From positions 62,001 through 126,000 of the forward strand of contig NZ_AUFL01000015.1 in NCBI RefSeq assembly GCF_000426485.1: 64,000 nt of DNA. The letters are read 5' to 3'. The translations under genes and the position numbers were made by a program. A model generated the notes under the pieces. The model had not been told where the DNA came from. It did not search any database and was given only the letters and a program-made list of their open reading frames with translations. Source of the DNA: Indolivaga capnocytophagoides DSM 22835. GTDB taxonomy: Bacteria > Bacteroidota > Bacteroidia > Bacteroidales > Dysgonomonadaceae. Below are positions 10,001-57,458 of this stretch, in pieces (positions within the stretch are counted from its first letter, which is position 1; every line of letters starts with the position of its first letter).

Positions 10001-10059
10001 TTAAATATAACAGGCTTTGGCTGTTACTTGCCAAATCAATAAACAGGTCTGAGACCTTA
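10001..10059 (+). repeat. Dispersed palindromic element, copy 1
   Basis: The tail holds a hairpin with arms TAACAG (10008-10013) and CTGTTA (10021-10026), then ACTTGCCAAA. The core GGTCTGAGACC is at 10046-10056, ending in TTA. The core finishes 10 bases before the esterase start codon. Confidence 0.85.
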
Positions 10060-10066
10060 AATTTTT

Positions 10067-10921
10067 ATGGAAAAAATAAAATCGGGATGCAGAACCCTTA
10101 TTGTTCTGTTTATTTTTACATCTGTCTTATCGGGTTTTAGCTGTGCACAGGTTACTCAAATAAATGAAGTAAGTATATACAGCGGTAAAATGGATATTAA
10201 TGTCAAAAATATCGTAATTCTGCCCGCAGATTATAACAGTCGGACTTCGAAGAAATATCCGGTTGTTTATCTATTGCATGGGCATGGAGGTAATCAGAAT
10301 TCTTTTCTGAACATAAAGCCCAATCTTCCTGAACTTGCCTCAATAAACCAAGTTATATTCGTTTGTCCGGATGGAAAAGTCAGCTGGTATTGGGATAGCC
10401 CGACTGATCCGAAAATACAATACGAAACGTATGTTTCTAAAGAATTGATTGATTACATAGATTCGCATTACAGAACGATATCCGATAAAAGCGGTCGGGC
10501 TGTAACAGGATTCAGTATGGGAGGCCATGGAGCCTTGTGGATGGCTGTTACTCATCCTGAGACTTTTGGCGCAGCAGGTTCTATGAGTGGAGGTGTGGAT
10601 ATTCGTCCTTTTCCCCGAAACTGGAATATGTTGAACTCGTTGGGAACTTATACCGAAAATAAGGCAGTCTGGGATAGTCATACAATAGCAACACAAGTAG
10701 AAAAACTCCGTAAAATAAGCCCGAACCTGATAATAGATTGCGGACAAGGCGATTTTTTCTTTAAAGTAAACGAAACTTTACATAAAGATTTAGCTGATAA
10801 GAAAATTAACCATACTTACATCAGCTCGCCGGGAGAGCATAATAGTGTATATTGGAATAAGACCTTCGATTGGCAATTGGCTTTTTTTGTCGAATTTTTC
10901 GCTGCTTCAAGACCCAATTAA
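10067..10921 (+). CDS. Secreted esterase, esterase D/CE1-like family
   Basis: A 284-residue alpha/beta hydrolase with an N-terminal signal sequence (cleavage likely near GFSCAQ; the lipobox is imperfect, so lipidation is uncertain). VYLLHGHGGN gives the oxyanion region and GFSMGGHGALW contains the nucleophilic serine. A conserved DCGQGDFFF gives the Asp and SPGEHNSVYW the His. The family covers feruloyl and acetyl-xylan esterases and S-formylglutathione hydrolase. An exported enzyme removing acyl groups from plant glycans is plausible but unproven. The 5' leader carries a palindromic element core 10 bases before the ATG. Confidence 0.85.
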   Translation: MEKIKSGCRTLIVLFIFTSVLSGFSCAQVTQINEVSIYSGKMDINVKNIVILPADYNSRTSKKYPVVYLLHGHGGNQNSFLNIKPNLPELASINQVIFVCPDGKVSWYWDSPTDPKIQYETYVSKELIDYIDSHYRTISDKSGRAVTGFSMGGHGALWMAVTHPETFGAAGSMSGGVDIRPFPRNWNMLNSLGTYTENKAVWDSHTIATQVEKLRKISPNLIIDCGQGDFFFKVNETLHKDLADKKINHTYISSPGEHNSVYWNKTFDWQLAFFVEFFAASRPN

Positions 10922-10969
10922 AGTCATCCATCTTGTGAGGTTGGAATAACTATAGGCATATTGAACGTA

Positions 10970-11210
10970 TTTTATCTATAGTAGAAAGTTCTTTGATTGG
11001 TTTATGGGTATTCTTTATTTATACGGTTGTATTATGACCGTAGGAGCAAATAGTTATTTGCCCGAAATAAGATCGAATATCGGGCGAAAGATTTTTTGTA
11101 CCTGCAGTGCCTCAGAAGCCGTCTAACAATTTTTGAGCGTTTGCTTTGGTAAGAAAAAGAATACAAATAAAAAATGTATATTTTTGTGTAACGTTTGTTA
11201 CCTTTTGGAG
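10970..11210 (+). repeat. 240-bp dispersed repeat, copy A
   Basis: Runs from TTTTATCTATAG to GTTACCTTTTGGAG and is about 96% identical by eye to the inverted copy at 16731-16971. It contains a small palindrome GCAAATA-GT-TATTTGC and, near its end, GTAAC-GTTT-GTTAC. A TAnnTTTG-like TATTTTTG at 11179-11186 could drive recG, 93 bases further on. A weak remnant of the GGTCT core may follow at 11216. It fills most of the 357-base gene-free spacer 10922-11278, where I see no gene. Confidence 0.85.
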
Positions 11211-11278
11211 GTTAAAGGTCTGAAAAGGAGAAGATAAAAAGAAACAAACAGATACGAAGATTAAACTGTTTAAACGTA

Positions 11279-13375: not shown

Positions 13376-13380
13376 AAAAA

Positions 13381-13424: not shown

Positions 13425-13441
13425 CTTTTCACCTAACAGTC

Positions 13442-15560: not shown

Positions 15561-16589
15561 TCAGAATATTTTTTTTACCCCTATACCGGGAAGATCGTTT
15601 AATACAATCTTCCCGTTTATTATTTTAGTACCCGAGAAACAATCGTTTGTAATGAGCAATGCTCCGTCTAAATCGGCAAATTTTACAGCAGGAGATAATT
15701 GAGATGCCGCCGAAATAGCACAAGATGTTTCGGTCATGCACCCAAGCATTACATCAAAACCCATTTGCGGAGCAGCAGTGATCATTTTCCAGGCTTCATG
15801 CAAACCTGTACACTTCATTAATTTGATATTAATACCAGAGAATGCCCCTTTTATCCGTTCCATATCGGCAAAACGCTGAATTGATTCATCGGCATATATT
15901 GGCAAAGGGCTGTGTGAGGTGAGCCATGCGCTGCTTTCCAGATCATTTTTTATCATTGGCTGTTCAATCATTACTGCTCCCTGTTCTTTAAGCCAACAGA
16001 TCGAATCTAATGCCTGCATACGGTCTTTCCACCCTTGGTTGGCATCAATAGCAAGCGGAAGGTCTGTAACACTTCGTATGGCAGATATTATCTGTTTGTC
16101 GTTTATCCCACCGAGTTTTACTTTCAGTATTTTGAAATCATCCGCAACTTCGGCTACTTTTTTACGCACTACATCATCTGTATCCATACCTATTGTATAG
16201 GTTGAGTAAGGTGTTTTAGACGGATCGAGATTCCAGATCTTATACCATGGCTTATTCTTTATCTTTCCGGTCAAATCATGTAAAGCTATATCTACAGCGG
16301 CTTTTGCAGCGGTATTTCCTGCTTCAATATTATCGATATAGGATAATATTTCTTCGATTTTTTCGAGATTGTTGAATGTCGAAAAATCGATTTTTTCAAG
16401 GAAATCAATAACGGTCTTTTGCGTTGCTCCCAGATATTGCGGTAAAGAGGCTTCCCCATAGCCTGTGATTCCATCGTACTCCAGTTCTACAAGTACAACC
16501 GGTGTTGTCGTCCTGGAATAAGTTGCTATTGTAAACGGATATTTTAACTGCAACTCATACGGTTGCCATCTAAGATTCAGCCTTGCCAT
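15561..16589 (-). CDS. Dipeptide epimerase (L-Ala-D/L-Glu epimerase type), enolase superfamily
   Basis: A 342-residue muconate-lactonising subgroup protein. The K-x-K base pair is in FKILKVKLGG. Metal ligands are in LAIDANQGW, VMIEQPM and IYADES, and the second base lysine in INIKLMKC. These match the family that epimerises L-Ala-D-Glu released from murein and related dipeptides, in the cytoplasm. That fits a role in peptidoglycan recycling but the exact dipeptide is not readable. A hairpin within its 3' end (15587-15615) could stop transcripts from the convergent lipoprotein gene. Confidence 0.88.
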   Translation of the reverse strand: MARLNLRWQPYELQLKYPFTIATYSRTTTPVVLVELEYDGITGYGEASLPQYLGATQKTVIDFLEKIDFSTFNNLEKIEEILSYIDNIEAGNTAAKAAVDIALHDLTGKIKNKPWYKIWNLDPSKTPYSTYTIGMDTDDVVRKKVAEVADDFKILKVKLGGINDKQIISAIRSVTDLPLAIDANQGWKDRMQALDSICWLKEQGAVMIEQPMIKNDLESSAWLTSHSPLPIYADESIQRFADMERIKGAFSGINIKLMKCTGLHEAWKMITAAPQMGFDVMLGCMTETSCAISAASQLSPAVKFADLDGALLITNDCFSGTKIINGKIVLNDLPGIGVKKIF

Positions 16590-16611: not shown

Positions 16612-16725
16612 TTAAGGTTACAGACTTATTTGCCTCGCCTTCCCTTCGGCGATTGTTAATTGTTGATTTTGCAAGCATAACAGCAAGAGCTGGTTATCGC
16701 TCTAAAACACATCATTAAATACTTT
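16612..16725 (-). repeat. Dispersed palindromic element, copy 2 (degenerate core)
   Basis: Core remnant AAGGTTACAGACTT is followed by GCAAGCATAA, a hairpin with arms ATAACAGC (16677) and GCTGGTTAT (16689), and the conserved tail end CATCATTAAATACTTTC. The tail runs directly into the 240-bp repeat copy B, showing the two units joined. Confidence 0.75.
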
Positions 16726-16730
16726 CTATC

Positions 16731-16971
16731 ACTCAAAAGGTAACAAACGTTACACAAAAATATACATTTTTTATTTGTATTCTTTTTCTTACCAGAGCAA
16801 ACGCTCAAAAATTGTTAGACGGCTTCTGAGGCACTGCAGGTACAAAAATCTTTCGCCCGATATTCTATCTTATTTGGGGCAAATAACTATTTGCTCCTAC
16901 CGTCAATAATCCAACCGTATAAATAAAGAATACCCATAAACCAATCAAAGAACTTTCTCCTATAGATAAAA
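16731..16971 (-). repeat. 240-bp dispersed repeat, copy B (inverted relative to copy A)
   Basis: Near-identical inverted partner of 10970-11210, with about nine differences by eye. Minus-strand TATTTTTG at 16762-16755 is the promoter-like box also seen in copy A; here it points toward the dipeptide epimerase. The spacer 16590-16981 holds only this repeat and palindromic element copy 2. Confidence 0.85.
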
Positions 16972-16981: not shown

Positions 16982-18535
16982 CTATTCTTTTCTCCGGAGT
17001 TGGTACACCACATGTCCTTTGAAATCGGCTCTGTCTACAATCTCAAAATATTGGCTTACTTCGATTGAATCGGCGGTAACATTCATAAAAGAATCGTCTT
17101 TGTCTACATTTTTGATTATTAATGCGTTTTTATAAGATGGGTCGACTTCTTTAAAATCAAAAATAGGGATGCAGTTAAAGTTTTTCAGGTATTGTTTGTA
17201 GTATTTCTTAGTCAGACGTATTCTTTGATAGTGCTTATGGTCAGGATATAGTAAATTTCCGAAAGCTATAGCAAAACTTCGTGTGTCGGAGTATAAGAAT
17301 ACAGTATTACTATCTACCCGCTGTTCGGCAAAATGGATAATATTATTCTGAACCCATTGATCCCGGTCATTTGTTTCTTTTTGAAGCATAAACCTGTTTA
17401 CCGATAGAAAACCCAGGATCACGAAAAATAAAGAAACGATGACTTTATTTATTGTCTTATCATAATTAAGTAATGATAAATGGATTGCGATAAATAAGAT
17501 AAATAAAGCCATCAGAGGGTTCATGTAACGTGTTACAAAGACTGGCTTCACGGCAAATGAATACACAATCACAGATGATATAACCAGGATGAAAACGGCG
17601 AAAATAAGTTTTCCGAAGATACTTTTAGGGATTTTCTCTTTATGTGAACCCTGTGAACTATCTACAACTGTATAACAAACTATCGACAAAAGGATAGCAG
17701 TTAAAGTCAGTTCGATTGCAAATGTTTTTAAAGGCGTTCCTGTCCCTACTAAGTCTAATTCTGTAGAGAAAGGGTAGTAAATGTAAATCACGAGATCTTT
17801 TAACCTCGATTGATTTATCCAGTATTCATCGCTCACCTGACCCATTTGAGCCGGAATATGGATTAACCATGGCAAATAGCCGACTATAAAAAGAATACCT
17901 ATTCCTAAAAATTGAAGTGATTTATCTCTTTTGTATATAAAAAGAACTGTGAATAGTATGGCATAAATATAAAAAACTGCCATCAAAGCGTAATAATGGG
18001 TATATGCTGCAGCTAAAGAAAATAAGGTAAGTTTTATTAGATTGAATTTCGAAAAGTTATTAAAACTTCGGTATGAGTATATTGCACTTCCTAAAACAAA
18101 CAACATAGCTAGTGAATACATCCTTATTTCGGAGGCTATGTATTGGGTTACGGGTAGTAGGATGAAGATGGAGAGAAATAAAACTGCGGTTTTATCGCCA
18201 AAATCCTTTCTGATCAGAGTGCATCCTATAATCAGGCACCCTATAACCGGCAGGCATGAAAATATACGGAGAGCGACAACCGACTGTCCGGCAAAGTATG
18301 TATATACTTTGAGCAAAGCATAATAAAGAGGAGGGTGAACATCATTTGCCGTGATATACCATAGTTGTGAAAAAGAATGCCTGACCAGATTGATTGTATA
18401 TGCCTCGTCGTACCAGAACGCCGTGTAAAAGCAGTGGTACAATAAATAAAAAGAGCCTATAATCAATAGGCTGAATAGTATAATAGTATTCCGTGATTTG
18501 TCCGTAAAATATCCCATATCAGTAAAAGAAAGCAT
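16982..18535 (-). CDS. GT39-like polyprenol-dependent glycosyltransferase (ArnT/PMT-type membrane protein)
   Basis: A 517-residue membrane protein with about eleven hydrophobic segments followed by a soluble C-terminal portion. The first extracytoplasmic loop holds FWYDEAYTINLVRHSF, with the conserved acidic residues of the GT-C fold, then DVHPPLYYALLKVY, both typical of GT39/PF13231 enzymes. Such enzymes transfer a sugar from a polyprenyl phosphate carrier to lipid, glycan or protein outside the membrane. The acceptor is unknown. Upstream, the tail of a palindromic element abuts its start codon. Confidence 0.85.
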   Translation of the reverse strand: MLSFTDMGYFTDKSRNTIILFSLLIIGSFYLLYHCFYTAFWYDEAYTINLVRHSFSQLWYITANDVHPPLYYALLKVYTYFAGQSVVALRIFSCLPVIGCLIIGCTLIRKDFGDKTAVLFLSIFILLPVTQYIASEIRMYSLAMLFVLGSAIYSYRSFNNFSKFNLIKLTLFSLAAAYTHYYALMAVFYIYAILFTVLFIYKRDKSLQFLGIGILFIVGYLPWLIHIPAQMGQVSDEYWINQSRLKDLVIYIYYPFSTELDLVGTGTPLKTFAIELTLTAILLSIVCYTVVDSSQGSHKEKIPKSIFGKLIFAVFILVISSVIVYSFAVKPVFVTRYMNPLMALFILFIAIHLSLLNYDKTINKVIVSLFFVILGFLSVNRFMLQKETNDRDQWVQNNIIHFAEQRVDSNTVFLYSDTRSFAIAFGNLLYPDHKHYQRIRLTKKYYKQYLKNFNCIPIFDFKEVDPSYKNALIIKNVDKDDSFMNVTADSIEVSQYFEIVDRADFKGHVVYQLRRKE

Positions 18536-18611
18536 TTAATGATATATTTTTAGTTTATCAATAATCTCAGGTTGTTATACTTGCCTAAGTAATAAATTGG
18601 TCTGAGACCTT
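18536..18611 (+). repeat. Dispersed palindromic element, copy 3
   Basis: AATGATATATTTTTAG begins the tail, TTATACTTGCC follows, and the core GGTCTGAGACC is at 18599-18609. It fills the spacer between the ruvB stop and the GT39 start; the tail end touches the GT39 start codon. Confidence 0.85.
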
Positions 18612-18670
18612 GCTTAAATTTATTCGGTAAAACCGGTTCTCTATGACCGTAACAGAGGGTTTGATCCTTT

Positions 18671-19699: not shown

Positions 19700-19728
19700 T
19701 AATTCGATTATAAAAAGGTCTACTGCCT

Positions 19729-21972
19729 TTAACTAAGCCTGTTTACCGATTGTACACCTTCTATCTTAAGAATCAGTGAACATAGTTTTTGTACATCTGC
19801 TACACTATGTACAAAAAGGCTTACTTTACCTTCAAAGATACCATCATTCGATTCGATATTCAAATTTTTTATATTTACCGAGTCCGTGATGATCACCTTG
19901 GTTATATCGTTCAGCATTCCTACCCGGTCTATCCCTCTGATAACTATTGTCGATAGAAACGAGTACTGCGCATAATTACCCCACTCAAGATTCAAAATCT
20001 TATTACCAAAACTAGCTTTTAGTTTAAGACCTACAGGACAATTTACATTGTGTACCTGTATTTCGTTGTTATCACCGATAAAACCGAATACTTTATCTCC
20101 AGGAATAGGATTACAGCATGATGCGAGCCTGAAATTTTTCTGAAAAGAATCTTCCTGAAGTATATAGGTCTTCTTCTTGTCGATGGTATTCAGATCATCT
20201 GTATCCGAAATAGTAGCTGTTTCCGTTTCTTTCTTTTTAGTGCGGAATGCCTGACGAACGTATCTCATCAGGAAGTTACTGTTGGTATTATCTTTGGCAT
20301 CTTTGAACAAAAGAGCCGGTTTTGTCGGTAAAACAATCGTTCTATTGCCTATAGCAAAGAATAAGTCTTCTTTTTTGGCAACTTTGTAATAATCCAGCAT
20401 TTTGTCGATGGTAGGAGTTGGAATGTCTTCCACTCCTAAAAAACCTCTCAGTTTTATTTCTCCCTGTTTCGCTATTTCTTTTTTCTGTTTTTTCAGAGAT
20501 GCTTCGAGTTTGGCTCTGGCTTTTCCACTTGTCACAAATCCCAGCCATTCGGGTTGAGGGGTTTGTGACTTTGATGTCAGAATTTCGACCTGATCACCGC
20601 TGTTTAACTTATGGCTCAATGGTACAAGCTTGTGATTTACCTTCGCCCCGATACATTTATCTCCGATATTGGAGTGAAGTTCATAGGCAAAATCGAGAGC
20701 AGTTGCTCCTTGAGCCATTGTCTTTAGGTCTCCTTTGGGAGTAAACACAAATATCTCTTGCGAAAATAAGTTCAGCTTGATTGTATCAAGGAAGTCAATT
20801 GCGTTTGGATTTGGATTTTCGAGTATCTCTTTTATGGTTTTCAGCCATTTGTCGAGTTCTGTATCTTCTTCGACTTTTCCCTCTTTGTATTTCCAATGTG
20901 CAGCGAATCCCTTTTCGGCGATATCATCCATTCTTCGGCTTCGGATCTGTATTTCGACCCATTCGCCATCAGGACCCATAACCGTGAGATGTAGTGCCTG
21001 ATATCCATTCGATTTCGGACGGCTTACCCAATCCCTGATCCTGTCGGGGCGGAGCTTATAAATATCCGTAATGATCGAATAAATATCCCAGCATCGTTTC
21101 TTTTCGTCTAATCCAGGTTCGGATTCGAAGATAACACGTACCGCAAAAATATCATAGATTTCTTCGAACGGAACGGCCTTTGTCTTCATCTTATTCCAAA
21201 TAGAATAGACCGACTTATCTCTCGCCTTTATTTCGTATTTGAAGCCTTGTTCATCGAGTCTTTTCTTTACAGGCTCGGCAAAGTGTTCGAATATATCACG
21301 GCGGATGTAGCTCGATTTGTCGAGCTTTTCTACAATATCGTTGTATTCTTCGGGATTTTCGTATTTAAAACTCAGTTCTTCGAGTTCCGTTTTTATGGCA
21401 AAAAGCCCCAGCCTGTGTGCCAGAGGGGCATATATATACATTGTTTCTCCTGCAATTTTATGGCGTTTTGCCGGAGCCATCGAACCCAAGGTTCTCATAT
21501 TGTGAAGACGGTCGGCTATTTTAACCAGAATCACTCGGATGTCATCGGACATCGTTAGCAGTAGTTTGCGGAAATTCTCGGCTTGCGAAGAAACCTGATC
21601 TCCGAACATACCACTCGAAATTTTCGTCAGTCCATCGACAATTTCAGCGATTTTATCGCCAAAAAGTTTCTTGATATCATCTACCGTGTAGTCTGTGTCT
21701 TCTACAACATCATGGAGGAGAGCCGCGCATATAGATGTTGACCCTAGCCCTATTTCGTTACAAACAATACGGGCTACCGCTATAGGATGCATAATATACG
21801 GCTCACCCGACCTGCGGCGTGCGCCTTTATGTGCTTCGCGGGCTATATGAAAAGCTTTCGTTATCAGTTCGACTTTTCGTCTGTGATTGGATTTGATATA
21901 ATCCTCGATAAGAGCGTCAAACTCTTTATCGATCATCATTTCTTCCTCTTTGTTCTTATCGTTGTTGTCCAT
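19729..21972 (-). CDS. Bifunctional (p)ppGpp synthetase/hydrolase, RelA/SpoT homologue
   Basis: A 747-residue long RSH enzyme that makes and degrades (p)ppGpp in the stringent response. The hydrolase domain is intact: H62 in YIMHPIAVA and the HD pair at 87-88 in [11 protein letters not shown]. The synthetase domain includes [17 protein letters not shown] and [20 protein letters not shown] domain begins at [14 protein letters not shown], and a C-terminal ACT domain follows a cysteine-containing segment ([12 protein letters not shown]). Because both active sites look complete, it is likely bifunctional. A palindromic element core sits 7 bases upstream of the start codon. Confidence 0.95.
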
Positions 21973-21977
21973 AAAGT

Positions 21978-22000
21978 AAGGTCTCAGACCTATTTATTAT
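21978..22000 (-). repeat. Dispersed palindromic element, copy 4
   Basis: Core GGTCTCAGACC at 21980-21990, 7 bases upstream of the Rel start codon on the minus strand. The following TATTTATTATTTTTGTG replaces the usual TTGGCAAGTATAA tail. Confidence 0.8.
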
Positions 22001-22087
22001 TTTTGTGTATACAACAGCAACAACTTATTATCATCAGACATTGTTGCATTAGATCTTTTTTATTTGCCAAGATAAGGACAAAATCCT

Positions 22088-29572: not shown

Positions 29573-30427
29573 TTATTTTAAATCCTGAAGCCAGTGTTTC
29601 AATAATTGGAGCATTTCGGTGTGGTACTTGAAGTTGGGTCTCATGCCCCATCCGTGTCCTCCTTCTGGAAATATGTACATCGTTGCAGGAACATTATTTT
29701 GCTTCAGGGCTTCGTAGTACATAATGCTGTTCATCGATGGAACTGCGTTGTCATCGTCGCTTAATAACAGTATTGTAGGAGGAGTTAGTTCAGTAATCTG
29801 TGTTTCGTTCGAATAAAACATTACATCATTAGCGGAAGGGTTTTCTCCTAACAAATTGCTTTTTGATCCCTGATGAGTATATTCTCCCATTGTTATTACC
29901 GGATAAAATAAAATAGAAAAATCGGGGCGGGTATCTTGTCCGTCAAAATGTGTAGAACCTGTTGACGCAAGATGTCCTCCTGCCGAAAATCCAGCTACAC
30001 CGACTTTAAGGGCAGAAGAGTCTTTTCTCGACAGATTTTTCTTTGCATATCTGATTGCCTGCTGAAGGTCTTCCAAAGGCACGGTTTTATGTTGGTTGGG
30101 TAAACGGTATTTAAGAACAACTCCTGTGATACCTAACGATTGAAGCCATTTTGCAAAATCATAACCCTCGTGATCAATAGCCAGACGGCTGTAGCCTCCA
30201 CCGGGACAAATTACAACTGCAATGTTGCGGTCTATCGCCAAATTGGGTTTGTAAATAAACATCTCGGGTGCACTGACATTCGAAATGCGGTTGTTTTCGT
30301 CAACTTCAGTACCTGTAATCCCATTATCTGTAGGCGGATTTTCATTCCATAACTTTACAATTTCTTGTGCATTCATCGTACTTACTGCGATAATAGAGAA
30401 TAAAAACAACAATAATTTTTTCTTCAT
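29573..30427 (-). CDS. Exported alpha/beta hydrolase, acetyl-esterase-like (tandem paralogue 2)
   Basis: A 284-residue hydrolase with a signal peptide ending near TMNAQ. ICPGGGYSRLAIDHEG forms the oxyanion loop (GGG type), and VAGFSAGGHLAS carries the nucleophilic serine; the acid is in LLLSDDDNAVP and the His in PEGGHGWG. The BD-FAE/acetyl-xylan esterase group fits best. It is 4 bases downstream of a close paralogue with the same motif set, which indicates tandem duplication. Likely removes acetyl groups from glycans in the periplasm; substrate unknown. Confidence 0.85.
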   Translation of the reverse strand: MKKKLLLFLFSIIAVSTMNAQEIVKLWNENPPTDNGITGTEVDENNRISNVSAPEMFIYKPNLAIDRNIAVVICPGGGYSRLAIDHEGYDFAKWLQSLGITGVVLKYRLPNQHKTVPLEDLQQAIRYAKKNLSRKDSSALKVGVAGFSAGGHLASTGSTHFDGQDTRPDFSILFYPVITMGEYTHQGSKSNLLGENPSANDVMFYSNETQITELTPPTILLLSDDDNAVPSMNSIMYYEALKQNNVPATMYIFPEGGHGWGMRPNFKYHTEMLQLLKHWLQDLK

Positions 30428-30431
30428 GATA

Positions 30432-31998: not shown

Positions 31999-32015
31999 AA
32001 TAAGAAACAAATGGG

Positions 32016-32043
32016 TCTGTGATCCTAAAAGGGTCTAAAACCC
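32016..32043 (+). repeat. Degenerate palindromic element cores beside the SpmAB-fusion stop codon
   Basis: Plus strand GGGTCTGTGATCC is followed by GGGTCTAAAACCC, the second ending within 2 bases of the minus-strand stop at 32045. These look like two decayed copies of the GGTCTNAGACC core next to repeat copy C. AATGGGT and ACCCATT can also pair to close a larger hairpin that could terminate transcription. Confidence 0.5.
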
Positions 32044-33281: not shown

Positions 33282-33620
33282 TTATTTGCTTTCAGAATTT
33301 ATAGGAGCAGGAACAGGTGGAACCGGGTATACAGGCCGCATTTCTTTGTGCCACTCTTTTAATATTCCGTTTTCGAATTGAAGAATGTAAAAATCAGACT
33401 TTGTGTTTTCGTAGCCGAGTATTTCAACCGATACACCGTCATCCGTTTTGAATGCACCTACTCGGTGATAGTCATTTCCTAAAGCTTTTATTACCTCTTT
33501 TTTAGTCATATCTAACTCTATTTTTTTCATATTCGAGTCAGCGCTCCACATATTTAGAGTAGAGCTGCATCCTGACAGGATAAAAGAGACCGTGATGAGT
33601 AGCAATGCATTTCTGATCAT
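33282..33620 (-). CDS. Small lipoprotein, BamE/SmpA-like in outline
   Basis: A 112-residue protein with a lipobox (ILSGC at residues 14-18) after a short signal. The mature part (MTKKEVIKALGNDYHRVGAF, then a beta segment FYILQFENGILKEW) resembles the alpha-alpha-beta layout of small BamE-like envelope lipoproteins; similarity is by pattern only. The tail is proline-rich (PVYPVPPVPAP). It precedes the SpmAB fusion gene by 4 bases, so the two are cotranscribed. Function unknown. Confidence 0.75.
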   Translation of the reverse strand: MIRNALLLITVSFILSGCSSTLNMWSADSNMKKIELDMTKKEVIKALGNDYHRVGAFKTDDGVSVEILGYENTKSDFYILQFENGILKEWHKEMRPVYPVPPVPAPINSESK

Positions 33621-33640
33621 AATAATATATTTTCAAATTA

Positions 33641-33692
33641 TAATAAGCTCAGTTTATTATACTTGCCAAAGTACTAAATAGGTCTGTGACCG
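33641..33692 (+). repeat. Dispersed palindromic element, copy 5
   Basis: TTATTATACTTGCCAAAG tail and core GGTCTGTGACC at 33681-33691, about 110 bases upstream of the RNase P RNA. The spacer otherwise holds only the rnpB promoter. Confidence 0.8.
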
Positions 33693-33784
33693 TATTTAGT
33701 AAAACTATTTACAATATTACATCTTTTTGATGGATAATGAGAACACAAATAAAACAAAAACATGTGATTAAAGACTCAAAATAT

Positions 33785-34163: not shown

Positions 34164-34193
34164 ATTTTTTATTTCTTCACAAAAAGAACAATA

Positions 34194-34391
34194 ATGGCTA
34201 AAAGGGAGAAAAGCTATACCGAAGCTTTAAGCGAATTGCAGAATATTCTCGATAAAATCGAGTCGGGAGATCTGGATGTAGACGTTTTGACCGATGAAAT
34301 CAAAAAAGCATCGGAGTTAATCAAATTGTGTAAAGACAAACTGTATAAAACAGATGCGCAGATTAAAAAAATAATCGACGAAATAGACTAA
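34194..34391 (+). CDS. xseB: Exodeoxyribonuclease VII small subunit
   Basis: A 65-residue helical protein of standard length. YTEALSELQNILDKIESGD is the family signature, followed by a second helix LIKLCKDKLYKTDAQIKKII. It binds XseA (encoded at 44749 in this window) to form exonuclease VII, which trims single-stranded DNA. Here it is separated from xseA by more than 10 kb. The stop codon TAA is directly joined to a palindromic element core. Confidence 0.92.
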   Translation: MAKREKSYTEALSELQNILDKIESGDLDVDVLTDEIKKASELIKLCKDKLYKTDAQIKKIIDEID

Positions 34392-34466
34392 GGTCTCAGA
34401 CCTTCCTGCTTTGGTAAGTATAATTCCCAGAGCTTGCTATATCAAAATATATCATTAATATCTTTC
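34390..34466 (-). repeat. Dispersed palindromic element, copy 6
   Basis: AAGGTCTCAGACCTT overlaps the xseB stop codon. The tail TTTGGTAAGTATAA and AATATATCATTAATATC fills the spacer up to ispD. Confidence 0.85.
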
Positions 34467-34479
34467 TGTTCTTTTAACT

Positions 34480-35217: not shown

Positions 35218-35650
35218 CTAATACGAAGGGTTTTTTATCTGTTTTCTGATCTTCTTTCGAGTGGATATATTTTATATATAAAGTTAATATTTGTCTATAA
35301 TTCATCTTTTATATAACAGTGTTGTTTTGTAATTTTTTGAATTATAATTTTTTAAATGGTGTTTTAAGATGTGAATTAAATATAATAATTTCGATTAATT
35401 CTATTGATATATTTTGCAGGTTATGGTTTTTAATCAAATAGGATTTGTCTGTTATTTGTTCGCCGAGATAATGGTGTTTCTGTAAAATTTATTTTGGTTT
35501 TCTTTGTCTGTTTTCAGGCTTGGGGTTGTGCGGGATATTTGTTTTGAAGTGTCCTCTTTTATATTACTCATTGTATTCTTGGATAGGATATAAAACTATT
35601 TATTATTTTTGTGTATAAGTAACAAACTGTATTCTGCAATATCTTGTAAA
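35218..35650. other. AT-rich gene-free spacer upstream of rpoN
   Basis: About 430 bases with long T and A runs and no coding frame. TATTTTTG near 35602-35612, within TATTTATTATTTTTGTG, fits a -7 box for rpoN; the same string follows palindromic element copy 4 near 21995. Nothing else was recognised. Confidence 0.55.
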
Positions 35651-35703
35651 TATTATATCTGTTACTGATATGCTGGCAAGTTTATAAACAGGTCTGTGAC
35701 CTT
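35651..35703 (+). repeat. Dispersed palindromic element, copy 7
   Basis: TATGCTGGCAAG tail and core GGTCTGTGACC at 35691-35701, then TTA. The core ends 23 bases before the rpoN ATG. Confidence 0.8.
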
Positions 35704-35724
35704 AAATAAAAACAGTTTCGGGGA

Positions 35725-38145: not shown

Positions 38146-38183
38146 TACTGGTAAATACAGTAATAAATAGGTCTTAGACCTTA
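38146..38183 (+). repeat. Dispersed palindromic element, copy 8
   Basis: Shortened tail (TAAATACAGTAATAAATA) and core GGTCTTAGACC at 38170-38180, then TTA. The core ends 20 bases before the purE ATG; another copy marks the purE stop. Confidence 0.8.
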
Positions 38184-38200: not shown

Positions 38201-38707
38201 ATGAAACCTCTTGTTGCAATTATTATGGGTAGCACTTCGGATCTTCCGGTGATGGAGAAGGCTGCTAAATTTTTCGACGAAATGGAAATCCCATTTGAAA
38301 TCAATGCCCTTTCGGCACATCGCACTCCTCACGAGGTAGAAGCCTTTGCAAAAAATGCAAGAGAAAGAGGTATAAAAGTAATCATTGCTGCTGCCGGTAT
38401 GGCTGCACATCTTCCGGGAGTAATAGCTTCAATGACTACATTGCCTGTGATTGGTGTTCCTATCAATTCGTCGTTGGATGGGATGGATGCATTGTTGGCA
38501 ATAGTGCAAATGCCTCCCGGAATTCCAGTGGCTACAGTTGGGATAAATGGTTCGTTGAATGCGGCTATTTTGGCTTTGCAGATTTTATCGACAGACAATG
38601 TTGACTTGCAGAACAAATTAGCTTCTTATAAAGAAGACCTTAAGTCGAAAATTGTAAAGGCTAACAAAGAATTAGCTGCTACTAAATTTAAATTCAAAAC
38701 AAATTAA
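38201..38707 (+). CDS. purE: N5-carboxyaminoimidazole ribonucleotide mutase
   Basis: A 168-residue class I PurE catalysing N5-CAIR to CAIR in purine synthesis. [16 protein letters not shown], the catalytic-His block [10 protein letters not shown] and [15 protein letters not shown] are all present. The gene is bracketed by two inverted palindromic element cores, one 20 bases before the start and one directly on the stop codon. purK is not adjacent. Confidence 0.96.
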
Positions 38708-38725
38708 GGTCTCAGACCTTCTTTT
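38706..38725 (-). repeat. Dispersed palindromic element, copy 9 (core only)
   Basis: AAGGTCTCAGACCTT overlaps the purE stop codon TAA. A T-rich run follows and the usual tail is missing. Confidence 0.8.
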
Positions 38726-38807
38726 AATTAGTTAGATAAAAGGGTGTAACAGGTAGTTGTTGAATACTTGTTACACTTATAATTATTGGGGCGACCATTG
38801 AAATTTT

Positions 38808-41495: not shown

Positions 41496-41521
41496 TGTTT
41501 CTATTTTAAATTAGTAGTAGT

Positions 41522-41603
41522 AAGTATTTAATGATATGCTTTTAGTTTATAACAGGCTTTGGCTGTTTTACCTGCCAAAGCAATTGATAGGTCTGAGACC
41601 TTA
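41522..41603 (+). repeat. Dispersed palindromic element, copy 11
   Basis: AAGTATTTAATGATATGC begins the tail, TAACAG and CTGTTT pair around GCTTTGG, CTGCCAAAG follows, and core GGTCTGAGACC is at 41590-41600. The closing TTA is the fucosyltransferase stop codon on the minus strand. Confidence 0.88.
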
Positions 41604-43215: not shown

Positions 43216-44661
43216 ATGGCAAAGACCCTTAAAGAACAAACGGTTTCGGCTCTATTCTGGAGCTTTATGGAAAAAGGCGGGCAGCAGATTTTTCAATTTG
43301 TGTTTGCCATTGTTCTTGCCCGTTTATTAAGCCCCGGAGAATTGGGATTACTTGGAGCTTTAGCCATATTTATAGCTGTTGCTAATATTCTACAGGAGAG
43401 TGGATTTTCTTCTGCATTGATTCGTAAACAGGAAGTTTCGGAAAAGGATTATTCAACCGTCTTTTATTTCAATATCTCGATCAGTATAGTTTGTTATATT
43501 ATACTGTTTTTTTTCGCTCCTTACATCGCAGATTTTTATAAACAGCCTATTTTATCGGATTTATCGAGGTTTTTATTTCTTTCATTCGTTTTCAACGGGT
43601 TTAGTGTCGTCCAATATGTGCATTTGGTTCGCCAGATGGCATTTCGTAAGAATACCCGTATATCATTAGCCTCAACTTTAATATCGGGAGGGGTGGCTGT
43701 GATTATGGCATATTACGGATATGGTGTATGGAGTTTGGCGGCACAGCAGGTATTACAGACTTTACTTAGATCTGTATTTTTATGGATCTCTATCAGATGG
43801 ACTCCTTCAGCATCTTTTTGCTTTGACGGGTTGAAATCTATGACCGGATACAGTAGTAAGCTTCTTCTGAATTCTTTATTCAATCAGGTGGCAGTAAATA
43901 TTTCTTCTATCGTGATCGGTAAGAAATTCTCGATGTCTGATCTTGGTAATTACAATCAGGCAACCAAGCTGGGTAATCTTCCTCAGGGAATGATTGCTTC
44001 CAGTTTGCAATCAGTAGCTTTCCCTCTATTGAGCAAACTAGGTGATGATATTGATGCTAAACGAAAAGTTTTCCGAAAGATAGTACGTGTTGTCTGCTTT
44101 CTTTGTTTTCCGATAGCTGTTTTCACTATAATCTCGGCAGAATCGATTGTTTTGGTTGCTTTCAAAGAAAAATGGATAGGAGTTGTGCCTATTTTAAGGC
44201 TCTTAGTTATAGGGAGTTCTGTGTTGCCTTTGTTCTATTTATTATCATCCTTGCTACAGTCAGTCGGGAAGTCGGGAATGCTGCTTTCTGTAGAGTTATT
44301 CCGTAATATCCTCACACTATTGGTCATTATTTATACTGTCAGATTTGGGGTAAACGGAGTTGTTTTGGGTACGAGCTGTATTGCTATTCTGTCGTTTCTC
44401 GTAGCTTATTACATTGCGGGCAGGTGTATTAAATACTCCATGTGGGAAGTTATGAAGGATATTCTTCCCTATGGTTTTATTGCAATTATTACATTCTGTC
44501 CGACTTATTTCTTAGGATCGGTAATCTCCAATAATCTTATTTTATTATTGACTCAGCTTATTGTAGGAGGTTGTGCCTATCTGATTATTCTAAAGCTGCT
44601 GGGGTCTAAAGTTCTCGATGAAATGATGCAAATTGCCCGTCGAAAGAAAACAATCCGTTAA
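43216..44661 (+). CDS. Polysaccharide flippase, MOP superfamily (Wzx/PST type)
   Basis: 481 residues from the ATG at 43216, with 12-14 membrane segments. The start LKEQTVSALFWSFMEKGGQQ and the segment FVFAIVLARLLSPGELGLLG match the polysaccharide_synt family; SALIRKQEVSEKDYSTVFY is also typical. It moves lipid-linked repeat units to the periplasmic side. It is adjacent to the GT11 and GT2 genes, so these may build one glycan. No polymerase (Wzy) was recognised here. Confidence 0.92.
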   Translation: MAKTLKEQTVSALFWSFMEKGGQQIFQFVFAIVLARLLSPGELGLLGALAIFIAVANILQESGFSSALIRKQEVSEKDYSTVFYFNISISIVCYIILFFFAPYIADFYKQPILSDLSRFLFLSFVFNGFSVVQYVHLVRQMAFRKNTRISLASTLISGGVAVIMAYYGYGVWSLAAQQVLQTLLRSVFLWISIRWTPSASFCFDGLKSMTGYSSKLLLNSLFNQVAVNISSIVIGKKFSMSDLGNYNQATKLGNLPQGMIASSLQSVAFPLLSKLGDDIDAKRKVFRKIVRVVCFLCFPIAVFTIISAESIVLVAFKEKWIGVVPILRLLVIGSSVLPLFYLLSSLLQSVGKSGMLLSVELFRNILTLLVIIYTVRFGVNGVVLGTSCIAILSFLVAYYIAGRCIKYSMWEVMKDILPYGFIAIITFCPTYFLGSVISNNLILLLTQLIVGGCAYLIILKLLGSKVLDEMMQIARRKKTIR

Positions 44662-44740
44662 GGTGTCAGATACCTGTTGTTGACTTTGTAAGCATAACCG
44701 GAAGAGCAGATTATTCCTTTAAAATAGGTCATTAGTACTT
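44660..44740 (-). repeat. Dispersed palindromic element, copy 12 (degenerate)
   Basis: AAGGTGTCAGATACCT overlaps the flippase stop codon; the two arm changes (GGTGTC and GATACC) partly compensate each other. TTTGTAAGCATAACC and GGTCATTAGTACTTTC are the tail. It fills the spacer between convergent genes. Confidence 0.75.
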
Positions 44741-44748
44741 TCAGTTAT

Positions 44749-45984
44749 TTATTTAACTAAAGACTTGACTTCTCCATCTGCAAAACGGGTTACGATATTA
44801 TCTCCCTTTTTTACACCTGCTTTACTTTTTATTATCTTTTTACCGGATAAAGTTAGGGTATACCCCTTTTTCAGAATATTCTCAGGAGAATTATGTTCTA
44901 TATATTGCTCTTTCGATTCGAGAATATGTTTCTGATCCTGTAAAACTCTTATTGCTGCATTCTTAATCTTCTCTGATATGATATCTAGTTTATTTAGCTG
45001 ATCTTTTGTCCGGTCTTTGATTATGTACGAATACTTGGTCACCAATGTATTTAAGATTGTAGCTTCTTCAATCAATCTTTTATTTGTTTCGAAGATAATG
45101 CTGTCTTGGATATCGATTAATTCGGATGCGGATTCGTAAATATGCTTTATCAGAAATTCAGCTACAGCAGTCGGTGTTTTAGCTCTGGTATGCGCTACGA
45201 TATCGAGAACTGTGTCGTCTCGTTCGTGTCCGATACCTGTAATTATAGGCAGAGGGAATTGGGCGCAGTTAGCAGCGAGCAGATATGAGTCGAAACTACT
45301 CAGATCAGAGGTTGCACCTCCACCGCGAATAATTACGACAGCATCGAATTTATCGATGTTTTCGTATATTCTGTCTAATGCAGCAATAATAGATTGTTCG
45401 GTACGATCGCCTTGCATTATTGCCGGAAACAGCTTATTGTAGAATATAAACCCGTCTTTATTGTTAGTCAGCTGATTACAAAAATCCTCGTATCCGGCGG
45501 CTGTCGGTGAAGATATAACGGCTATCCGATTGGCTATTTTAGCCAAAGGCAGTTCTTTATTGAGGTCTAATACCCCTTCCTCTTCGAGTTGTTTGATAAT
45601 CAAAGTTCTGTTTTTAGCCTGATCACCCAAAGTATAGGAAGGATCTATATCATGTACATTAAGGCTGTATCCATATAGCTCATGAAATTCGATACTTACC
45701 TGCACCAGTACTTTAAGTCCGGATGCAAAAGCCTGTCCTGTCTCAGATTCGAAATAGGCTTTCAGCATACGGAATACATTCGACCAGATACTTCCTCTGG
45801 CCTTTGCGATTATCGTTTTGTTATTTGAGTCTTTCTCGATGAATTCGAGATAACAATGTCCATTCTGATTACTCCGGACATCGCTCATTTCGGCTCTTAT
45901 CCAGAATCTTTGACTGAAAGTATCGGCAATAACACCTCTTACCAGATTATTCAGTTCATATAATGATAGTGCAGGCAGTTCCAT
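44749..45984 (-). CDS. xseA: Exodeoxyribonuclease VII large subunit
   Basis: A 411-residue XseA. The N-terminal OB-fold nucleic-acid binding domain (RFWIRAEMSDVRSNQNGHCY) is followed by the catalytic domain with AVISSPTAAGYEDF, VVIIRGGGATSDLSSFD and ITGIGHERDDTVLDIVAH. The C-terminal coiled region binds XseB copies. Together with xseB at 34194 it makes exonuclease VII. It lies 2 bases downstream of a subtilase gene and is likely cotranscribed. Confidence 0.96.
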   Translation of the reverse strand: MELPALSLYELNNLVRGVIADTFSQRFWIRAEMSDVRSNQNGHCYLEFIEKDSNNKTIIAKARGSIWSNVFRMLKAYFESETGQAFASGLKVLVQVSIEFHELYGYSLNVHDIDPSYTLGDQAKNRTLIIKQLEEEGVLDLNKELPLAKIANRIAVISSPTAAGYEDFCNQLTNNKDGFIFYNKLFPAIMQGDRTEQSIIAALDRIYENIDKFDAVVIIRGGGATSDLSSFDSYLLAANCAQFPLPIITGIGHERDDTVLDIVAHTRAKTPTAVAEFLIKHIYESASELIDIQDSIIFETNKRLIEEATILNTLVTKYSYIIKDRTKDQLNKLDIISEKIKNAAIRVLQDQKHILESKEQYIEHNSPENILKKGYTLTLSGKKIIKSKAGVKKGDNIVTRFADGEVKSLVK

Positions 45985-48870: not shown

Positions 48871-48883
48871 ATGTCGTTTTATT

Positions 48884-48900
48884 AAGGTCGCAGACCTATT
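48884..48900 (-). repeat. Dispersed palindromic element, copy 14 (core only)
   Basis: Core GGTCGCAGACC at 48886-48896, 15 bases upstream of the MltF-like start codon on the minus strand. With copy 13 it brackets the gene. Confidence 0.75.
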
Positions 48901-48912
48901 TTATAGCAAATA

Positions 48913-50018: not shown

Positions 50019-50020
50019 TT

Positions 50021-50050
50021 TAGGTCTCAGACCTATTTTATTATTTTGAT
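50021..50050 (-). repeat. Dispersed palindromic element, copy 15
   Basis: Core GGTCTCAGACC at 50023-50033, four bases upstream of trhO on the minus strand. A short tail TATTTTATTATTTTGATAA follows. Confidence 0.8.
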
Positions 50051-51063: not shown

Positions 51064-51089
51064 AATTAATAAAAAGGTCTGATACCTTA
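51064..51089 (+). repeat. Dispersed palindromic element, copy 16
   Basis: TTAATTAATAAAAA then core GGTCTGATACC at 51076-51086 and TTA, which is the stop codon of the ABC exporter gene on the minus strand. Confidence 0.78.
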
Positions 51090-52940: not shown

Positions 52941-52954
52941 CTGGTTACTTGTCT

Positions 52955-53036
52955 GGTCGTAGACCTATTTATTACTTTGGCAAGTATAACAATATAAACT
53001 TGTTAAGTCTTGAAAATATATCATTAAATGCTTTCA
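52955..53036 (-). repeat. Dispersed palindromic element, copy 17
   Basis: Core GGTCGTAGACC at 52955-52965, TTTGGCAAGTATAAC, a hairpin with arms TAACAA (52987) and TTGTTA (53000), and ATATATCATTAAATGCTTTC. The arms differ from copy 1 (TAACAG/CTGTTA) at both paired positions. No gene was recognised in 53037-53219. Confidence 0.87.
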
Positions 53037-53219
53037 TTTCTTTAATATGAAACTAATGCCTTCGCAAAAACGAAAGCGCAAGTTAGTGATAAATATTGTT
53101 TAACGAAAGCCGGTGTATTTTGATCAGATATAAGGGTGGTAATAAATTTTTATTTTAACATTTGTTTGCGAAAAGTTGATTTATGGACTACAGATATAAG
53201 CCCTGCCATGTGTAGGACT

Positions 53220-53617: not shown

Positions 53618-53645
53618 AATTCATGAGTGTTAATTGGTTTATCTA

Positions 53646-53730: not shown

Positions 53731-53739
53731 GGTGGTAAT

Positions 53740-53760
53740 AAAATAGGTCTGAGACCTTAA
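53740..53760 (+). repeat. Dispersed palindromic element, copy 18
   Basis: AATAAAATA then core GGTCTGAGACC at 53746-53756 and TTA; seven bases separate the core from the GSCFA ATG. Confidence 0.82.
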
Positions 53761-53763
53761 TAT

Positions 53764-54750: not shown

Positions 54751-54820
54751 CTACTTGATAACTAATGGCTTTAAAGCCTGTATATATTATTTAAGAAATT
54801 GCTTTTACTCTAAAAAGAAG

Positions 54821-57292
54821 ATGGCATACAAGATAGCGGATATAGCTAAAACACTAAAAATTAAAGAAATTGCTTTTCCTGACTATAAGATCAGTCATTT
54901 ACTGACCGATAGCCGGGAAGTTTTTAATCCTGAAGAAACATTATTTTTTGCGCTGAAAACGAAAAATAATGACGGGCATAAATACATCGAAGAGCTGTAT
55001 AAACTCGGTATTCGGAACTTTGTGGTAGATACAATTGCCCCAGAATGGAGCAATTTGCAGGCAGTGAATTTCCTACAAGTAAAAAACACATTGCAGGCAT
55101 TACAGGCTGCAGCGACATTTCATCGCGACCATTTCAAAATACCGATAATAGCTATTACCGGAAGTAACGGAAAAACTATCGTAAAAGAATGGATTTATCA
55201 GCTGCTGGGTTCCGAACGTCGTATCACTCGTTCGCCCCGTAGTTATAACTCGCAGATAGGTGTGCCTTTATCGGTTTGGCAGTTGAATGAAAATACAGAG
55301 ATAGGCCTTTTCGAAGCCGGTATTTCTATGCCTAACGAGATGGCTAAATTGCAGCGTATTATCCAACCTACTATCGGAGTATTCACCAATATTGGAGATG
55401 CCCATCAGGAAAACTTTCAGAATCTGAAACAAAAATGCCTCGAAAAGTTAGAATTATTTATCAATTGCGATGTTATAATTTGTGAAGAAGGAAATCAACT
55501 GCTCGATGAATGTATGCAGTCTGCTTGCCTTTCTCAGAAGCGTTTTACATGGTCTTACAATCTGAGATCATCAAGCCCTCTGCTTATACAGAGCATCGAC
55601 CGTTCCGAAACAGTTTCGTATATCACATACTCGTTTCTGGGGTTACCATTTACAATAGAACTGCCTTTTGTTGACGATGCTTCTATCGAGAACGTAACCA
55701 GTGCTATAGCCGTATCTCTTTATCTCACCACTTCTATCGACATTATCCAAAAGAAAGTGCGTCAGCTCGAACCGGTAGCTATGCGTCTGGATGTGCGTCA
55801 GGGAAAGAATCAGAATATTATTGTAAACGATACTTACAACTCCGATATTAATTCGTTAAAGATCGCCCTTTCTTTCCTTGGACAGCAGGCAACCGAGGAA
55901 TCTCAAAAGAAAACATTGATATTATCCGATATATTGCAGTCGGGGTATTCCGATGAGGCTTTGTACCGCTCGGTTCTTGATTCGGCGAGAGCTGCTAATG
56001 TCGAGAAGATCATCGGTGTTGGTAAGCATATTTCGCAGCAGCAGCAAATATTCGAAAATATTCCTCACGCTTTTTTCGAAACGACCGAAGAATTTATCGA
56101 ATCGGGTATTTGGAACGATTTCCATGCCGAAACCATATTACTGAAAGGTTCCCGCAGTTTTGAATTTGAACGTATTGCCGAATTGATCGAACAGAAAACC
56201 CACGAAACGGTCTTAGATATTAATCTGGACGCTGTGGTGCATAACTTCAAATTTTACCGTTCACGTTTGAAACCCGAAACTAAAATGATATGTATGGTTA
56301 AGGCCGATGCATACGGTTCGGGCTCTGTTGAGGTTGCTAAAATATTGCAGTATCACAAGTGTGATTATTTTGCAGTTGCCATTGCCGAAGAAGGCAGTTT
56401 ATTGAGAAAATCGGGTATAAAGACTCCTGTGATTGTTTTAAACCCTGAAGTAGGTGGATTCAACCAGCTTTTCGAGTCATACCTTGAACCCGAAGTGTAT
56501 AATTTCAGAATATTGGATGCTTTTATACGGGAAGCACAACGCCGTGGTATTTCGGATTTTCCCATCCATATTAAGATGGATACAGGAATGCACCGCTTAG
56601 GATTTACCGAAGAAGATTTACCCAGATTAGTAGATCGGCTTACTTCACAAAAAGCATTAAGGGTTGTGTCTACCTTCTCTCATCTGGCGGCAAGCGAAAG
56701 CTGGTCTTTTGATGATTTTACTATACAGCAGATTTCTATATTTAAAAAGCTGGCAGGTATGCTTCAAGATGGATTGGGATATCCTGTATGGCGTCATATC
56801 CTCAACTCAGCCGGAATGGAACGCTTTCCTGAAGAGCAGATGGATATGGTACGGTTAGGTATCAGTCAGTATGGCATCAGTGCAAGCGGACTTTCGGGCT
56901 TACGAAATGTGTGCACTTTGCGTACTACCATATTGCAGATTAAACATATAAAAGCTGGAGAAACGGTTGGCTACGGGCGTAAAGGCAAAGTCGAGCACGA
57001 TTCGGATATCGCAACCCTGCGTATCGGATATGCCGATGGGCTGAGCCGTCAGTTCGGAAACGGAGCCGGACATGTGCTTATCAAAGATAAACTTGTTCCG
57101 TTTGTGGGCAATGTCTGTATGGATTTATCGATGGTTGATGTAACCGGACTGGATGTAAAAGAGGGAGAGTCGGTTATTATCTTTGGGGATGATCTCCCTG
57201 TGACGGAATTAGCCAAAACAATTAATACGATTCCTTACGAAATACTGACTTCGGTTTCGTCAAGGGTTAAGAGGATTTATTTCAGGGAATAG
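54821..57292 (+). CDS. Bifunctional UDP-MurNAc-tripeptide:D-Ala-D-Ala ligase / alanine racemase
   Basis: 823 residues from the ATG at 54821; an in-frame TTG 66 bases upstream is less likely. The N-terminal half is MurF: IAITGSNGKTIVKEW (ATP loop, about residue 108), ITRSPRSYNSQIG and NDTYNSDINS. The C-terminal half (from about residue 465) is Alr: CMVKADAYGSGS holds the PLP lysine, and GYGRKGKV and RIGYADGLSR lie near the catalytic tyrosine. One polypeptide thus makes D-Ala and adds D-Ala-D-Ala to the cell-wall precursor. Ends at a strong terminator. Confidence 0.95.
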   Translation: MAYKIADIAKTLKIKEIAFPDYKISHLLTDSREVFNPEETLFFALKTKNNDGHKYIEELYKLGIRNFVVDTIAPEWSNLQAVNFLQVKNTLQALQAAATFHRDHFKIPIIAITGSNGKTIVKEWIYQLLGSERRITRSPRSYNSQIGVPLSVWQLNENTEIGLFEAGISMPNEMAKLQRIIQPTIGVFTNIGDAHQENFQNLKQKCLEKLELFINCDVIICEEGNQLLDECMQSACLSQKRFTWSYNLRSSSPLLIQSIDRSETVSYITYSFLGLPFTIELPFVDDASIENVTSAIAVSLYLTTSIDIIQKKVRQLEPVAMRLDVRQGKNQNIIVNDTYNSDINSLKIALSFLGQQATEESQKKTLILSDILQSGYSDEALYRSVLDSARAANVEKIIGVGKHISQQQQIFENIPHAFFETTEEFIESGIWNDFHAETILLKGSRSFEFERIAELIEQKTHETVLDINLDAVVHNFKFYRSRLKPETKMICMVKADAYGSGSVEVAKILQYHKCDYFAVAIAEEGSLLRKSGIKTPVIVLNPEVGGFNQLFESYLEPEVYNFRILDAFIREAQRRGISDFPIHIKMDTGMHRLGFTEEDLPRLVDRLTSQKALRVVSTFSHLAASESWSFDDFTIQQISIFKKLAGMLQDGLGYPVWRHILNSAGMERFPEEQMDMVRLGISQYGISASGLSGLRNVCTLRTTILQIKHIKAGETVGYGRKGKVEHDSDIATLRIGYADGLSRQFGNGAGHVLIKDKLVPFVGNVCMDLSMVDVTGLDVKEGESVIIFGDDLPVTELAKTINTIPYEILTSVSSRVKRIYFRE

Positions 57293-57314
57293 GTCATTCT
57301 ATTTTCACTTAATA

Positions 57315-57360
57315 ATACGGTCATACAATTCTGAACAAATTGTATGACCGTATGTTATTT
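57315..57360 (+). terminator. Terminator after murF-alr
   Basis: ATACGGTCATACAATT (57315-57330) pairs perfectly with 57338-57353 around a 7-base loop and is followed by a T-rich run. Confidence 0.85.
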
Positions 57361-57440
57361 ATTTTAGTTAAATAATGTAATCTATAAATATATAATTGTT
57401 TCGACAACTATATTTGTGATTAAATAAAGAAGATAAATAA

Positions 57441-57458
57441 AAAAGGTCTGAGACCTTG
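57441..57458 (+). repeat. Dispersed palindromic element, copy 19
   Basis: Core GGTCTGAGACC at 57445-57455 with AAAA before and TTG after; the usual tail is absent. The core ends 18 bases before the TolC-family ATG. Confidence 0.8.

Follow-up and report, generated by a model that had tools for sequence, protein, structure and literature searches.

A family of short intergenic repeats in Dysgonomonadaceae with sharp docking on translation boundaries

Repetitive extragenic palindromic (REP) elements, mobilised by REP-associated tyrosine transposases (RAYT), are short extragenic hairpin units present in hundreds of copies, the enterobacterial repetitive intergenic consensus (ERIC) is an imperfect palindrome of ~127 bp, and the order concerned here is the Bacteroidales, to which Porphyromonas gingivalis also belongs. 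In the passages that describe them, ERIC sequences, or intergenic repeat units, of enterobacteria are short, intergenic and non-coding, resemble miniature inverted-repeat transposable elements (MITEs) and number 30 to 711 copies, and QMITE2 of Coxiella is a MITE lying mainly in 3' untranslated regions, with many truncated, REP-like copies (PMC10969869). In this study, we analysed 64,000 nucleotides of Indolivaga capnocytophagoides DSM 22835 (contig NZ_AUFL01000015.1, positions 62,001 to 126,000; hereafter the window), in which the original prediction, made from the letters alone, had described a dispersed palindromic element sitting on translation boundaries. The element proved to be one end of a longer repeat with hundreds of copies per genome.

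The source genome (4,377,988 bases in 38 contigs; G000 in the counts) falls in the Dysgonomonas group, and the closest named relative of the window's MsbA-like protein is found in Dysgonomonas macrotermitis (92% identity). The 11-nt core of the element, GGTCTNAGACC, occurs in 320 exact copies throughout the 4.38 Mb, against 0 for a reversed-pattern control, and five other genomes of the same genus hold 144, 291, 1 (in a genome that is 62% complete), 45 and 146 copies. This core forms the left end of a repeat running TTAAGGTCTCAGACCTATTTATT...CATTAAATACTTTCTGTTACTTAA, with the approximate consensus TTAAGGTCTCAGACCTATTTATTGCTTTTGTAAGTATAACAGCAACAGCTTGTTATAACTTTAAAATATATCATTAAATACTTTCTGTTACTTAA. 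Most of the 160 measured copies (130) are 87–96 nt long, 93 nt being the most frequent length (70 copies), and the left end, a hairpin of 4–6 bp, is frequently found alone as a unit of ~23 nt. The predicted dispersal, clade specificity and strong bias for gene boundaries were therefore borne out, while the supposed complete palindrome is only one end of a ~93-nt unit. A profile seeded with eight copies detected 119 copies in 464 kb, and its search of three genomes (1.65 Mb) gave 273. The repeat shares with MITEs an AT-rich consensus, a short length, a multi-copy and intergenic occurrence and a lack of coding capacity. Comparison of the window with Rfam at the gathering score returned RNase P as the sole match, so that the repeat is no known Rfam family, and no description of it was found in the open-licence PMC literature. 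We regard it as a new family of MITE-like intergenic repeats with unusually sharp docking on translation boundaries.

Placement was evaluated against genes called by our own codon-usage caller, not a standard annotation, in which start codons are possibly misplaced. Only 4 of 129 exact cores lie wholly within called genes, although genes make up about 83% of the DNA; DNA uptake sequences, which are frequent inside coding sequence too, were rejected as a candidate on this count. The placement test used 244 of the 273 profile copies, after 29 had been dropped for a poor core match, and a null of uniform placement in gaps of at least 90 nt, which is simplistic for operon gaps. Where the left end faces the 3' end of a gene, 45 of 96 copies touch the stop codon against 0.7 expected, and where it faces a start, 67 of 148 lie 11–30 nt away against 9.6 expected. 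The right end is likewise over-represented 2–20 nt before starts (32 copies), left-only copies peak 15–17 nt before the ATG, and a second set of 1.12 Mb showed the same start-proximal cluster in a less sharp form. The boundary placement is thus far above chance, as predicted. The orientation rule, by which the tail always points away from the gene, failed genome-wide: of the 95 full copies whose gap measures 250 nt or more, 30 have only the left end near a gene, 23 only the right end, and 42 neither. Left blocks occupy 355 tandem, 133 divergent and 52 convergent gaps, and these counts roughly track the intergenic lengths of 253, 127 and 42 kb, respectively, as for neutral insertion. A fixed-distance promoter was also considered and rejected, since TAnnTTTG is missing in many cases and, in the others, its distance upstream of the core ranges from 10 to 196 nt.

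The copies are dispersed, almost completely intergenic, located at mostly different genes in each species and absent from several of the corresponding sites in a close relative. The repeat is probably a MITE-like, non-autonomous mobile repeat of Dysgonomonadaceae that lands at the TTAA or TAA of gene edges. Such sites would natively frame Bacteroidales genes, in the form of TAA stop codons and of an A-rich translation-initiation motif about 11–14 nt before the ATG. If insertions that spare the stop codon and the initiation motif are tolerated, copies would become concentrated on stop codons and 11–30 nt before starts. They may then shed the tail and retain the left hairpin, most faithfully before starts, possibly since it does no harm, or is of use, at that position, and the mobilising enzyme has possibly been lost.

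The left edge of the repeat is a TTAA-like sequence, and 231 of 558 left blocks retain the complete TTAA there. Among stop codons, TAA predominates. Across 1,895 genes that lack a left block, TTAA peaks 12–15 nt before the ATG, with a frequency of 2.94 per 100 positions that falls to about 1.05 farther upstream. A similar peak, 8–15 nt before the ATG (2.73 against 0.45–1.14 beyond 24 nt), was observed outside Dysgonomonadaceae, in 28 AT-rich loci (110 genes) of other Bacteroidales families, and these 28 loci hold no exact core. For Flavobacterium johnsoniae, a member of the Bacteroidetes, the relevant parts of a previous report describe little structure around the start codon and a translation-promoting adenine motif spanning −14 to −11 (PMC6847099); when a left block lies 16 nt from a start, its AA falls at −14 and −13. 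Near starts, TTAA carries a left block in 61 of 600 cases at 8–19 nt, 28 of 525 at 20–40 nt and 8 of 246 at 0–7 nt; the figures are 26 of 345 at stop codons, 103 of 3,977 elsewhere in intergenic DNA and 5 of 10,811 in genes. The supply of TTAA and TAA explains the placement only in part.

Most sites are not common to different species. Between the source genome and its relative G002, an upstream copy is common to 2 of 136 orthologous pairs against 4.3 expected, and a downstream copy to 6 of 136 against 3.5 expected, which is not significant (192 of 2000 shuffles were as high). In the closer pair G002 and G005 (mostly 84–92% DNA identity over the sequence blocks compared), 12 of 179 left blocks of G002 were mappable onto G005: 7 are absent there, 4 shared and 1 ambiguous. 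The reciprocal mapping placed 9 of 21, with the same four shared, 2 absent and 3 that we judged ambiguous. At the seven absent blocks, the G002 spacer is 59–229 nt longer in six and 25 nt longer in one, where a bare short insertion is thus possible. At one site (L028:9022), AAAATTAA is identical in both genomes exactly to the junction; TTAA is common to the filled and empty left junction at one site, and the right junctions are too diverged for a duplication to be read. Three of the four shared copies lack a recognisable right end. This pattern fits whole-unit insertion followed by tail loss, although the numbers are small. Within the window, the orthologues in G004 around the copy at 34,389 have only 3 nt between stop and start codons, and at the purE stop codon element-like sequence was seen by eye in G001, G002 and G005 too, with none evident in G004; its presence in four of five species indicates that some copies are old.

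A covariance-model scan, the check suggested with the original prediction, gave matches in 20 of 61 genomes of the family, in 5 of 15 genera; among six members of the genus, four have at least 150 matches, G004 has 83 and the incomplete G003 has 1. Of 393 genomes belonging to the order, 22 contain the extended core AAGGTCTNAGACCT. A distant Bacteroidales genome of another family, G052, holds 51 exact cores, and among 15 loci read there (L169–L183) several have a similar left block and a different tail, e.g., GTGGCTTACGCATTTTTATAAATTGC. In intergenic regions of G002, some left blocks have a different repeat behind them; it contains GACCTATGTGT, which has 12 matches on both strands in 0.8 Mb of that genome and none in the stretches of the source genome examined.

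Several rival explanations must be weighed against mobility. A cis-acting RNA hairpin of 5' leaders or 3' ends, kept by the host to control translation or mRNA stability of a regulon, would suit the peak of left-only copies before the ATG and the evidence for pairing. Among 146 elements selected without use of the stem, pair 2 shows 14 double Watson–Crick changes against 1.97 expected (with 2 other doubles and 1 G-U), pair 4 shows 4 against 1.09, pairs 1 and 3 one each, and the centre none. In 52 aligned copies the covariation score exceeded all 500 shuffles; the double changes came from a single pair, a pair count matched by 328 of the 500 shuffles, and related copies are not independent. Compensatory change is therefore present, to which inheritance within subfamilies may contribute. 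Start-facing copies have an intact stem in 138 of 187 cases, compared with 121 of 214 for distant copies (Fisher p 0.0004) and 49 of 109 for copies that adjoin a stop codon; among left-only copies, the stem is intact in 80% of 104 start-facing and 58% of 93 distant cases, with similar flank identity. Full copies show no difference in stem intactness between locations. Copies of the repeat are found in both orientations. A strand-specific G-U test before starts gave 15 to 4 in the first set (p 0.02) and was not replicated (2 to 4; pooled 17 to 8, p 0.11). Upstream copies are not shared by orthologues, so that a conserved regulon was rejected, and we consider the leader-hairpin explanation as a whole quite improbable. 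The compensatory changes together with the best-kept stems before starts make reuse as a leader hairpin possible. In a further version, which we regard as rather unlikely, the host would use the hairpin of a mobile repeat as a general gene bracket, recruited anew at different genes in each lineage: the tail would decay, the hairpin would be kept just outside the ribosome initiation footprint and directly behind stop codons, and its TTAA would serve as the A-rich motif at about −13.

A transcription terminator or insulator, in which a stop codon, hairpin and T run (TAAGGTCTCAGACCTTTTTATT) would end transcripts, draws on the fact that TAAGGTCTCAGACCTTTTTATT is the consensus of left-only copies at stops and that its hairpin folds at −5.5 kcal/mol (z −2.49). 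This role is very unlikely, since the copies are not enriched in convergent gaps (52 of 540), 20 of 46 stop-abutting copies end within 100 nt of the start of the next gene, 148 of 244 copies face a start and then have the T run on the opposite strand, and the stop-side stems are the least conserved. A palindrome in 320 exact copies might also be the DNA-binding site of an operator or chromosome-organising protein; however, the central pair varies freely without a double Watson–Crick change while an outer pair covaries, a G004 copy has a 4-nt loop (GGTCGGAAGACC), and sites are not conserved between species. The pair pattern and this loop fit a hairpin better than a dimer site, and we give the binding-site explanation hardly any credence. 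Within the mobile explanation itself, the repeat could derive from an IS200/IS605-type element, transposed as a single strand with hairpin ends, that lost its Y1 transposase, instead of being a MITE of the DDE type. The hairpin directly beside a short fixed sequence, a target duplication that was not demonstrated and an asymmetric loop with NCA on the element's strand would agree with such an origin, which nevertheless appears doubtful: a search of the source genome found no Y1 transposase there, and the right end, judged by eye, resembles an inverted and diverged left end, as in DDE-type MITEs.

Several observations also weigh against the explanation as a mobile, MITE-like repeat. Occupancy per TTAA at gene edges shows an unexplained 3–4 fold excess, which reflects targeting or selection. 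In 1.05 Mb of the source genome, the 232 left blocks (score of at least 15) comprise 83 with a right block and 149 without, against only 23 right blocks without a left block, an asymmetry that even decay would not yield. The left-only tails are mostly unique, with at least 5 genomic matches in 13 of 161, on which a second repeat as their source was rejected; they retain weak but above-chance traces of the middle and right end at the expected offsets. The terminal inverted repeat (TTAAGGTCTCAGACCTATTTATT versus inverted TTAAGTAACAGAAAGTATTTAAT) is imperfect and was aligned by eye. The consensus, when folded, pairs from one end to the other with z only −1.31, and RNAalifold on aligned copies predicts no pairs. 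Target duplication was not demonstrated, and the empty sites rest on the 12 mapped cases, with other decayed copies in some of the intervals. As for a mobilising enzyme, the source genome has no Y1_Tnp (PF01797) match, in a search that matched in 5 of 14 genomes as a control, and six genus members have no PF13701 (IS1380 type), these two being the transposase families searched. Long copies between separated ends were sought in 1.65 Mb, giving six left-to-right pairs in the source genome and one in G002, besides some pairs of inverted left ends. Called genes lie within 5 of these 7 left-to-right pairs, and in two cases (C1 420,583 and 588,597) the genes look ordinary, since they have orthologues in G002. 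Within these two families and this 1.65 Mb, no autonomous partner with matching ends was found.

Within the window (Table 1), exact cores number 11, spanning 10,046 to 57,455, and 30 sites have at most 2 mismatches to the core against 13.4 expected, a number reached in 0 of 100 shuffles. A weight matrix built on the left block (22 nt) found 21 sites in the window, one of which, at 35,001 inside a called gene, is probably due to chance, and the profile found 18 copies, including the variant core GGTGTCAGATACC at 44,662; the predicted number of about 20 was therefore right. The core was confirmed just before all nine starts named in the original prediction, at the distances given in Table 1, and the six cases in which the element supplies the stop codon also held, with distance 0 at 34,392, 38,708, 39,414, 41,590 and 51,076, and also at 44,662. 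Pfam supports the names esterase, RelA/SpoT, AIR carboxylase (purE), SIS (KdsD-like), SLT plus SBP (MltF-like), UPF0176/rhodanese (trhO), GSCFA and OEP (TolC); the names rpoN, xseB, flippase, fucosyltransferase and MsbA lie outside this check.

Table 1. Copies and left blocks of the repeat in the window (window coordinates).
Position	Strand	Type	Relation to genes
9971..10060	-	repeat copy; only left end and middle recognisable	left end 10 nt before esterase ATG (10,067)
16613..16735	+	full copy, interrupted by an insertion of ~30 nt	left end 26 nt before start of minus-strand gene 15,561-16,589
18519..18612	-	full copy	between minus-strand genes; left end 61 nt past gene ending 18,671
19712..19730	-	marginal left block, score 17.5	at stop of gene 19,729-21,972
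21977..22069	+	repeat copy	left end 7 nt before Rel start
32009..32028	-	marginal left block, score 15.3	in spacer
33596..33694	-	repeat copy	in spacer near rnpB (33,802-34,167)
34389..34475	+	full copy	begins at stop codon of gene 34,194-34,391
35616..35704	-	repeat copy, right end decayed	left end 23 nt before start at 35,725
38161..38183	-	left block alone	20 nt before purE
38705..38798	+	decayed copy	begins at purE stop codon
39411..39501	+	full copy	begins at stop codon of SIS-domain (KdsD-like) gene
41511..41603	-	full copy	from fucosyltransferase-like stop codon to 15 nt before next start
44659..44751	+	full copy, variant core GGTGTCAGATACC	at stop codon
47367..47449	-	decayed copy	26 nt past MltF-like gene
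48883..48904	+	left block alone	15 nt before MltF-like gene; 10 nt from TATATTTG promoter-like motif
50020..50041	+	left block alone	13 nt before trhO-like ATG
51067..51089	-	left block alone	at stop codon of MsbA-like gene
52952..53044	+	full copy	left end 14 nt before MsbA-like start
53737..53759	-	left block with middle traces	7 nt before GSCFA start
57437..57458	-	left block alone	18 nt before TolC-like ATG

Two further repeats were observed in the window. An inverted pair of ~240 nt (10,970–11,207 and 16,734–16,971; 95–99% alike by segment) flanks 11.2–16.7 kb; one arm adjoins the full copy ending at 16,735, and behind the other lies TTAAAGGTCTGAAAAGG, which may be a remnant of the repeat. 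At 29,573–31,274, adjacent minus-strand genes, probably paralogues, have in common a 65-nt stretch that is 72% identical (29,944 and 30,812).

With hundreds of copies per genome, the repeat reshapes the leaders and trailers of many Dysgonomonadaceae genes, housekeeping genes included. If it does dock on the A-rich initiation motif, it would provide a natural experiment on the tolerance of the Bacteroidales translation-initiation region, and would advise caution, as motifs beside start codons may be mobile elements and not regulons.

Among the known systems, REP elements resemble the repeat in their short extragenic hairpins and copy number; unlike them, it occurs in a source genome with 0 PF01797 matches, on which a REP/RAYT system was rejected. 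The TAACTGA heptamers of Beggiatoaceae and some Bacteroidetes are, in the parts of the report that describe them, likewise dispersed just upstream of starts, patchy across taxa and without a gene-function pattern, but are direct heptamer repeats and not a single element with a hairpin end (PMC4679880). A few TAACTGA direct repeats were also noted in a C1 stretch of G002 (loci L129–L148), e.g., upstream of the C1:723101 orthologue, and one in C1 of the source genome. QMITE2 differs in its size of ~190 bp, and start-codon docking is not among the features given for it in the passages concerned (PMC10969869). The BrickBuilt MITEs of P. gingivalis are likewise always intergenic, with terminal repeats containing GAGACC/GGTCTC, but the relevant passages describe elements that reach ~1 kb, contain tandem repeats of 23 nt and occur in 19 copies lying 49–591 nt from genes (PMC4596501); compared with the repeat here, their end sequence stands in the opposite sense, and the common hexamer was seen by eye only. 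Compared by description and not by sequence, the repeat differs from ERIC, as described in those passages, by the dominance of a single end, which adjoins stop codons or the translation-initiation region.

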